DNA of 39,160 nt from Alphaproteobacteria bacterium (lineage in GTDB: Bacteria > Pseudomonadota > Alphaproteobacteria > Parvibaculales > Parvibaculaceae): assembly GCA_021775935.1 (NCBI GenBank), contig JAJFGY010000109.1, positions 1 through 39,160 of the forward strand, in the 5' to 3' direction. The position numbers were made by a program, and so were the translations under genes. The stretch's first letter is position 1; each line of letters opens with the position of its first letter. Shown here in pieces: positions 36,859-39,160 of the stretch. The notes below the pieces were generated by a model. It saw only the letters and a list, made by a program, of their open reading frames with translations. It was not told where the DNA came from and did not search any database.

Positions 36859-37413
36859 CTAGGGAGAAAGCCAGCCCGGCCGGGGGCCTTGTGGCACAAA
36901 CATCTCAACCATATCTTCTGCGAAGTGAGGGATGAGACGGTCGCCATATGCAAGCGCGCCAAGTGGCACCACGTAGACCATAGACCGCGTCGATCCATCC
37001 GAGGGTTCGACATAGGGTAAGGCGAGGCTCTCAAACTCCATCACCTCGCCGGCTCGGCTGTTAAGCCGACCGCTGACCCATCTGCCGAAGGGCGCGCCGC
37101 GTCCGTGCTCCCCATAGAAGCTGTCAAACGTCTCCCGCCTTTTGGTGGCATCAACAGCGGCCATGCTCTCTTCAAGATAGGTATGGGTGAGGTTCTCCCC
37201 AAATATGTCCACCAGACCCGTTCCAAAAAGAAGGCAGAACGAGCGCCCGTCCGCGTCTGTTTGATGCAAGAGGAGATTGGGCATAAAGGCTGCGAGACCG
37301 CGAAGGGGAAGATCTGATTTTCCAGGAATGGAGACATTGGCTGCTGCCCGCGCATCATACCAAAGCGACGCAAAGGCGATCATGGCTTTGGATTGAACGA
37401 TGATGGATGACAC
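36859..37413 (-). CDS. PAS_5 domain protein
   Basis: 184 residues resembling the alphaproteobacterial PAS_5 family: opening helix and LWYDARAAANVSIPGKSDLPL, then PNLLLHQTDADGRSFCLLFGTGLVDIFGENLTHTYLEE (the PAS core), and a C-terminal VYVVPLGALAYGD strand pair. There is no output domain and no membrane segment, so it is a small stand-alone sensor or adaptor whose ligand and partner are unknown. The start is a GTG preceded by a run of nine G (minus strand) that is itself the likely ribosome-binding sequence. An ATG at 37383 is in frame but lacks a good site. A minus-strand TATATT lies upstream. Confidence 0.8.
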   Translation of the reverse strand: MSSIIVQSKAMIAFASLWYDARAAANVSIPGKSDLPLRGLAAFMPNLLLHQTDADGRSFCLLFGTGLVDIFGENLTHTYLEESMAAVDATKRRETFDSFYGEHGRGAPFGRWVSGRLNSRAGEVMEFESLALPYVEPSDGSTRSMVYVVPLGALAYGDRLIPHFAEDMVEMFVPQGPRPGWLSP

Positions 37414-37417
37414 TTGA

Positions 37418-37426
37418 CCCCCCCCC
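37418..37426 (-). repeat. G9 homopolymer in the PAS_5 gene ribosome-binding region
   Basis: Nine consecutive C on the plus strand (G9 in the gene's sense), 4 bases upstream of the GTG start, forming AGGGGGGGGGTCAAGTG. Homopolymers of this length are prone to slippage, and length changes here would alter ribosome-binding strength or spacing. Confidence 0.6.
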
Positions 37427-37445
37427 TAAATGCAACTGGCGTTTT

Positions 37446-37451
37446 AATATA
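37446..37451 (-). promoter_or_regulatory. Possible -10 element of the PAS_5 gene
   Basis: Minus-strand TATATT (within CCTATATTAAAAC) would start transcription about 25 bases before the GTG. The -35 region 17 bases upstream (TGAACT) is poor, so the call rests on the -10 alone. Confidence 0.3.
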
Positions 37452-37642
37452 GGGTGGGCGCGATGTCCAGTTCAGCTCTGAGGGGGTCGGGGCCCGGACG
37501 CCTCAGAGGGGGGCAAAGCGAAGGAGAGCTTGTTAGGCCGTCGCAGAGGCGTTTTGCAGAAACGTCCAATCTGGTCTGACATCGGCGGCGTCAAACCTGT
37601 GGGTAGGAGCAGGACACCCACGTGCATTTTTGGGTCCTTCCC

Positions 37643-37964: not shown

Positions 37965-38063
37965 TGTCACTGCCGGACTTGTTCCGGCAATCCAGGGTTC
38001 CAAACGCAGGCTTCTATTTTGTAGCCCCTGGACCCCCGGAATAAATCCGGGGGTGACGGCTTC
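37965..38063. repeat. Palindromic repeat, copy A
   Basis: 99 bases aligning without gaps to 38982-39080, with about 17 differences. Terminal GTCAC (37966-37970) and GTGAC (38053-38057) are inverted; inside are hairpins TGCCGGA/TCCGGCA (37971-37989), TCCAGGG/CCCTGGA and ACCCCCGGA/TCCGGGGGT (about 38032-38054). It resembles the abundant GTCAT-nCCGG palindromic repeats of alphaproteobacterial intergenic regions. It lies upstream of the membrane-protein/XRE module. Confidence 0.8.
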
Positions 38064-38146
38064 TGTTGGGAGGCTCGGATGAGGCCAACCTCAGACAGGA
38101 CGAGCTGGGATCCAACCGGGTGGGGGGATAAGAAAGTAAAAATTTT

Positions 38147-38981: not shown

Positions 38982-39080
38982 CGTCATGCCCGGACTTGTT
39001 CCGGGCATCCAGGGATGCAAACGCAGGCGTCAATTTTGTTGCCCCTGGACCCCCGGTATAAATTCGTAGGTGATGGCTTT
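38982..39080. repeat. Palindromic repeat, copy B
   Basis: Second copy of the element at 37965-38063, same orientation and length. Its first hairpin is ATGCCCGGA/TCCGGGCAT (38986-39008), a base-paired variant of copy A, and TCCAGGG/CCCTGGA is kept, while the third hairpin (ACCCCCGGT/TTCGTAGGT) has decayed. It starts 27 bases after the XRE stop. Loose similarity seems to continue some 30 bases beyond. The remaining bases to 39160 show no gene. Confidence 0.78.
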
Positions 39081-39160
39081 CATTCGGAGACGTGCTGAGC
39101 ACCCAAACGCCTCAGCTACACCCGCTCGTGCCGCCACACGTATCGCATTTCAGGCAGGTG

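Follow-up and report, generated by a model that had tools for sequence, protein, structure and literature searches.

The PAS_5 gene and its surroundings

The window, that is, the whole stretch of 39,160 nucleotides analysed here, carries at 36859–37413 on its minus strand a GTG-initiated gene for a 184-aa protein with a single PAS_5 domain, as recognised from the ORF call, Pfam and the orthologs. The match to PF07310 scores 22.2 bits in Pfam, barely over the curated cut-off of 22, and 22.6 bits in the genome search; no Pfam domain besides PAS_5 was found in the protein. The structure predicted by AlphaFold2 on an alignment of 31 sequences has a mean pLDDT of 90.9. Its closest solved structures are LOV and other PAS domains, so that the model is assigned to the PAS fold: the best Foldseek match is a LOV protein (E 1.9e-4, with 19 matches at E <= 0.001), and the best Z given by VIA is 7.7, a middling value which, by the tool's own note, may mean just a common arrangement. 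As judged from Pfam and this predicted PAS-like fold, the protein is a lone PAS domain without output domain, and to call it a sensor protein, as was done in the preliminary description, is reasonable. Each of seven genus members has 12 to 20 PAS_5 matches in its genome.

On the minus strand the GTG (37411–37413), which is common to the window and four close orthologs, is preceded by a 4-nt spacer, TCAA (37414–37417, read from the sequence), and the spacer by nine G's (37418–37426, CCCCCCCCC on the plus strand); the strand reads A-G9-TCAA-GTG, in the wider context CATTTA-GGGGGGGGG-TCAA-GTG, and no second copy of the exact 14-mer exists in the assembled genome. A purine run a few nucleotides before a true start is what defines a Shine-Dalgarno sequence, and this is the arrangement of G9, TCAA and GTG. 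The claim that a G9 tract lies in the ribosome-binding site of the gene thus holds, with nine G's (37426–37418) four bases before the GTG, and we treat the run as a putative Shine-Dalgarno sequence on the grounds of the sequence, the ortholog comparison and a pairing model.

Upstream of the leader lies a conserved block on the same strand (37442–37469), TGGACA-N14-TATTAAAA in the window, which resembles a promoter or an operator. A TAGACA-N14-TATTAAAA-like pattern, taken from these very leaders and searched with at most two mismatches in seven genomes, was found at the PAS_5 gene in the five genomes where this gene has 74–100% identity and at one further place, in G001; the reversed control gave three matches in the seven genomes. 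No match to the sigma-70 consensus was found between 36800 and 37700, a scan which the block at 37442–37469 did not fit, and the same region has three terminator-like sites where shuffles have 1.0 on average. Between 36800 and 39160 no Rfam family reaches its gathering score.

Four relatives share the gene order aspS, PAS_5 (convergent), DUF1330, small membrane protein and HTH gene; aspS was read from the sequence, without family search, and likewise the small membrane protein, which has no Pfam match. Between PAS_5 and DUF1330, three relatives (G002, G003 and G004) hold one or two extra PAS_5 copies or pieces, for which no hit was obtained in the window or in G001; the corresponding part of the window, 37431–37642, is just a short gap. 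The pair formed by the small membrane protein and the HTH gene is flanked by two copies, 82% identical, of an intergenic repeat of 107 nt (37966–38072 and 38983–39089), the arms of which are palindromic and of CCGGACTTGTTCCGG type. By eye, letters like those of this repeat also adjoin G9 runs in sister genomes (loci L047 and L049).

Translation starts at the GTG

The choice of GTG as start codon is confirmed by comparison: the GTG is kept in all four close orthologs, with nearly the same codons after it. Over codons 2–10 none of the ten species pairs differs at a second position, while first positions differ 0 to 5 times and third positions 0 to 8 times per pair. Translation must therefore start upstream of the ATG at 37383. 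A start at this ATG, far from the tract, had been named in the preliminary description as one case in which its proposal would fail; it was checked and is excluded, the codons 2–10 upstream of it being conserved as coding in five species.

In the window species an in-frame TAG directly precedes the G run, so that no in-frame start exists upstream, and an in-frame TGA lies within the leader of G001. As these two stops block upstream starts, GTG is the only start common to all five species. G002, G003 and G004 have an in-frame ATG just before their G5, and from the sequence their start is ambiguous: it may be either the GTG or this preceding ATG. A switch of the frameshift type operated by the tract was considered for the window species and rejected, the in-frame TAG standing directly before the run with no in-frame start upstream of it.

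Run length varies between species

Our protein search covered 61 genomes including the window's own, of which 31 had some match. Six genomes besides the window's belong to the same genus (G001–G006), each species being represented by one genome; the loci L032 and L004, which come from one public contig, were treated as a single locus in the counts. Orthologs at 74–75% identity occur in four of the six (G001–G004; G001 is the metagenome-assembled genome of the Rhodobiaceae bacterium FE80). In G005 and G006 the top matches are at 45–46% identity, and a GTG with a G5 run was not seen in them.

A G run is observed at the homologous place in all four close orthologs, each time shorter than the G9 of the window. 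The site is GGGGG followed by 5 nt in G002, G003 and G004, and GAGGGTCTGGGGG followed by 4 nt in G001, compared with G9 and 4 nt in the window. The expectation that the run would vary in length is thus borne out between species only. From this pattern we infer that the ancestral site was probably a G5 about 5 nt before the start, and that in the window species the run grew to 9 while the spacer shrank to 4 nt. Slippage would be the cause of the lengthening, a passage from G5 to G9 being what slippage with drift would leave.

How unusual is the run?

Nine identical bases in a Shine-Dalgarno region had been called unusual, and this has to be considered separately for the length and for the place of the run. 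Concerning the length, the G9 is the only G/C run above 7 in the window, where G/C runs of 7, 6 and 5 number 2, 7 and 37. Its two overlapping G8 hits are not significant (1.38 expected on average; 39 of 100 dinucleotide shuffles reach 2). The assembled genome (3.25 Mb in 297 contigs, 88% complete) has 18 distinct runs of at least 8, the two longest of which measure 9; it is thus not rich in long homopolymers, a richness which is common in phase-variable genomes and not strictly required. As the shuffles are non-significant and the tail of the genome is short, the run, regarded by its length, belongs to the ordinary tail.

What remains unusual is the position: when genes were crudely called in the 3 kb surrounding each of the 18 runs, only the G9 of the PAS_5 gene had a gene beginning at most 30 nt downstream of it. 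Short G runs at this position are nothing exceptional in the genus. In 400 kb of G002, crude calling gave 338 genes, of which 15 have a G5 or a G6 at positions -22 to -1 and none a longer run. With similarly crude calls, GGGGG is found at -20 to -5 of 15 out of 331 G002 upstreams versus 4 at -60 to -45; for GGGG the counts are 38 versus 17 of 331 and for GGAG 51 versus 11. Since G5 and G6 before starts are not rare in the genus, the G9 appears as the long extreme of a normal class.

Each of the six sister genomes has at least one run of nine; G004 has a G12, G006 two runs of 10, and G001 many runs, mostly near contig ends. We examined 16 loci with runs of at least 9; of the 12 distinct runs listed for G001 just one was included, the other 11 being for the most part close to contig ends. 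Two of the 16 are sense-strand G runs at most 10 nt from a start, namely the window and, provided that its ATG at 1519 is the start, the locus L039 of G004 described below. A rough expectation by hand for these 2 of 16 is about 0.1, for a hypothesis formed post hoc and with Shine-Dalgarno sites being G-rich anyway.

Predicted pairing with the ribosome

The tail of 16S rRNA is all pyrimidine over CCUCCUUUCU. We searched for the 3' end of 16S in five genomes and did not find it (one of the five yielded two 5' pieces), so that the tail used in our pairing model is the usual one, by assumption. Since both G-C and G-U pairs can form, the G run would have many possible registers on this tail, and the ribosome would still reach one that is suitably spaced from the GTG. 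Adding or removing one or two G's would then be tolerated, with a small graded change of output.

The model sums the registers, uses an assumed spacing term and leaves mRNA folding out. It gives ensemble energies of -8.0 kcal/mol for G5, -9.5 for G7, -9.7 for G8, -10.0 for G9, -10.9 for G10 and -11.3 for G11, and -6.1 to -7.8 kcal/mol for the four orthologs. Each G between G7 and G11 thus counts for 0.2–0.9 kcal/mol, from which only small graded changes are predicted: with an assumed slope of 0.45 per kcal/mol, applied by hand, G8 would be about 1.2-fold down and G10 about 1.5-fold up relative to G9. Below G5 the same model falls steeply (-3.0 kcal/mol for G4, -1.0 for G3), so that a large contraction would matter. 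An expression switch between G7 and G11 is not predicted, the modelled effect being at most about 1.5-fold per G. By folding alone, the predicted openness of the start codon stays at 0.34–0.55 over G5–G13, with no trend.

Altogether, these data suggest that the GTG of the small PAS_5 gene is served by an overlong Shine-Dalgarno site, the G9 run, predicted to be strong and slip-tolerant; we give this reading a probability of roughly three in four. The site would be overlong but probably ordinary.

Other explanations for the long run

The best of the other explanations is neutral drift: the site is real, any run of five or more works, and the extra length has no consequence. We place it a little short of even odds. 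It is compatible with the reading of the run as a slip-tolerant Shine-Dalgarno site, and the odds of the two overlap. In the distribution of run lengths the G9 belongs to the declining tail; if the shorter runs of G002 are extrapolated, about 5 runs of at least 9 are expected in that genome, where 2 are seen; and between G7 and G9 the energies of the pairing model hardly differ. Against drift, the same model predicts a stronger pairing here than in the orthologs.

Phase variation, the proposal first made for this tract, would mean here that replication slippage switches or tunes the translation of PAS_5 within a population and has been selected. A homopolymer G9 at a ribosome-binding site and a run length that differs between species are in its favour, and it has a precedent in espR of Mycobacterium tuberculosis, where the insertion of one G raises translation with the mRNA unchanged, according to the available part of the report (PMC11898584). 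Two other observations can be read in the same direction. By hand, a TTG at 37435–37433, without evident Shine-Dalgarno site, comes into the frame of the gene only with G8 or G11; and in G004 the gene of an MFS transporter has a G12 lying 6 nt before an ATG where its G002 ortholog has a G5. Several results argue to the contrary: in the assembled genome no run exceeds 9 and only two reach it, the four orthologs have no long run, mutS and mutL are over the cut-off in all five genomes examined (the mutS of G000 covers positions 2–788 of 840, at a contig end), and for a G9 that loses or gains one G the model predicts changes of just about 1.2-fold down or 1.5-fold up. Nothing here shows that the G run works as a genetic switch, and we consider phase variation as improbable.

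In another explanation, expression would be controlled by a hairpin of the leader: in the relatives an upstream CCUCC-type arm would hide the G5, and the window species would have escaped through a broken arm and a longer run. Such an arm is seen in the leaders L003, L004, L005 and L006, and the window has CGCC in its place. The predicted openness of the G5 is indeed 0.00, 0.00, 0.00 and 0.01 in the four relatives versus 0.33 for the G9, and 88.6% of the cells pair versus 37–58% when the partner is slid, the structure being taken from the same sequences. Yet no pair is changed on both sides, shuffles reach the observed covariation in 294 of 500 cases, and the leader energies of the relatives are not beyond those of shuffles (z from -1.16 to 0.26). 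Besides, a TATTAA immediately precedes the arm and may act as a -10 box, in which case the arm may be left out of the transcript. We therefore see such a control as hardly probable. The window leader itself is predicted to be less folded than its own shuffles (z 1.95).

Finally, a sequencing or assembly error, the true run being shorter or longer than G9, might be suspected in a draft genome of 297 contigs, 88% complete, given that homopolymers are error-prone in some read types, and it is unlikely because the tail of run lengths shows no excess (18 runs reach 8, two reach 9 and none reaches 10).

A second long run, near the start of a transporter gene

The G12 of G004 lies at 1501–1512 of L039, six bases before an ATG of the MFS transporter gene, which encodes 407 aa when read from this ATG at 1519. 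The G002 ortholog (L122) is 89.6% identical over 404 residues and has a G5 and then AAAACAAGGAC before its start; there the AAGGA may be the real binding site. In L039 the longest ORF call begins at a TTG (1423), and in-frame ATGs are present upstream of the G12. If one of these upstream ATGs is the start, the G12 is situated inside the reading frame and not in a binding site, in which case slippage would shift the frame.

One could further imagine that, in this genus, Shine-Dalgarno sites made of G runs expand and contract by slippage (from G5 to G9 for PAS_5, perhaps from G5 to G12 for the transporter) and form a graded, slip-tolerant rheostat of translation. If so, each added G would slightly raise initiation, and the levels of sensor or transporter would be graded in the population, with no frameshift. 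We regard this extension as a speculation with few chances of being right.

Comparison with known systems

Neisseria, Campylobacter and Helicobacter have contingency loci with homopolymers, and their genomes contain numerous long tracts, frequently within reading frames or promoters. The window shares with these loci a G/C homopolymer at a position that controls expression, and differs in that its genome is without tracts of 10 or more.

With ordinary G-rich Shine-Dalgarno sites it has in common a purine run a few nucleotides before the start, homologous to the G5 of three orthologs; the difference is in the nine identical bases, none of the 338 G002 genes exceeding G6. The case mainly shows that a ribosome-binding site can become a homopolymer, probably staying functional because the G run pairs with the ribosomal tail in many registers. 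If such runs slip often enough, they would provide a simple graded tuning of translation initiation outside the usual pathogens.

In the literature on homopolymers of ribosome-binding sites, as judged by titles and the beginnings of abstracts, only the espR paper came close. In the part of it that is available, the homopolymer belongs to the 5' UTR, 144 bp upstream, varies among clinical isolates and is thought to act via the folding of the leader (PMC11898584). In both cases a regulator gene is preceded by a run of G's, the length of which can affect translation in espR and might do so here; the run of the window differs in being the putative binding site itself, and its length differences are known between species only, as compared with this portion of the espR report (PMC11898584).

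As for the protein, MopJ of Caulobacter crescentus is described, in the accessible part of the report, as a single PAS_5 (PF07310) domain of 165 aa with no effector domain (PMC4432633). The window protein, a lone PAS_5 domain of 184 aa, is similar to it by domain content, within what this excerpt covers (PMC4432633); it differs in barely passing the PF07310 cut-off and in belonging to a genus with 12–20 PAS_5 matches per member.
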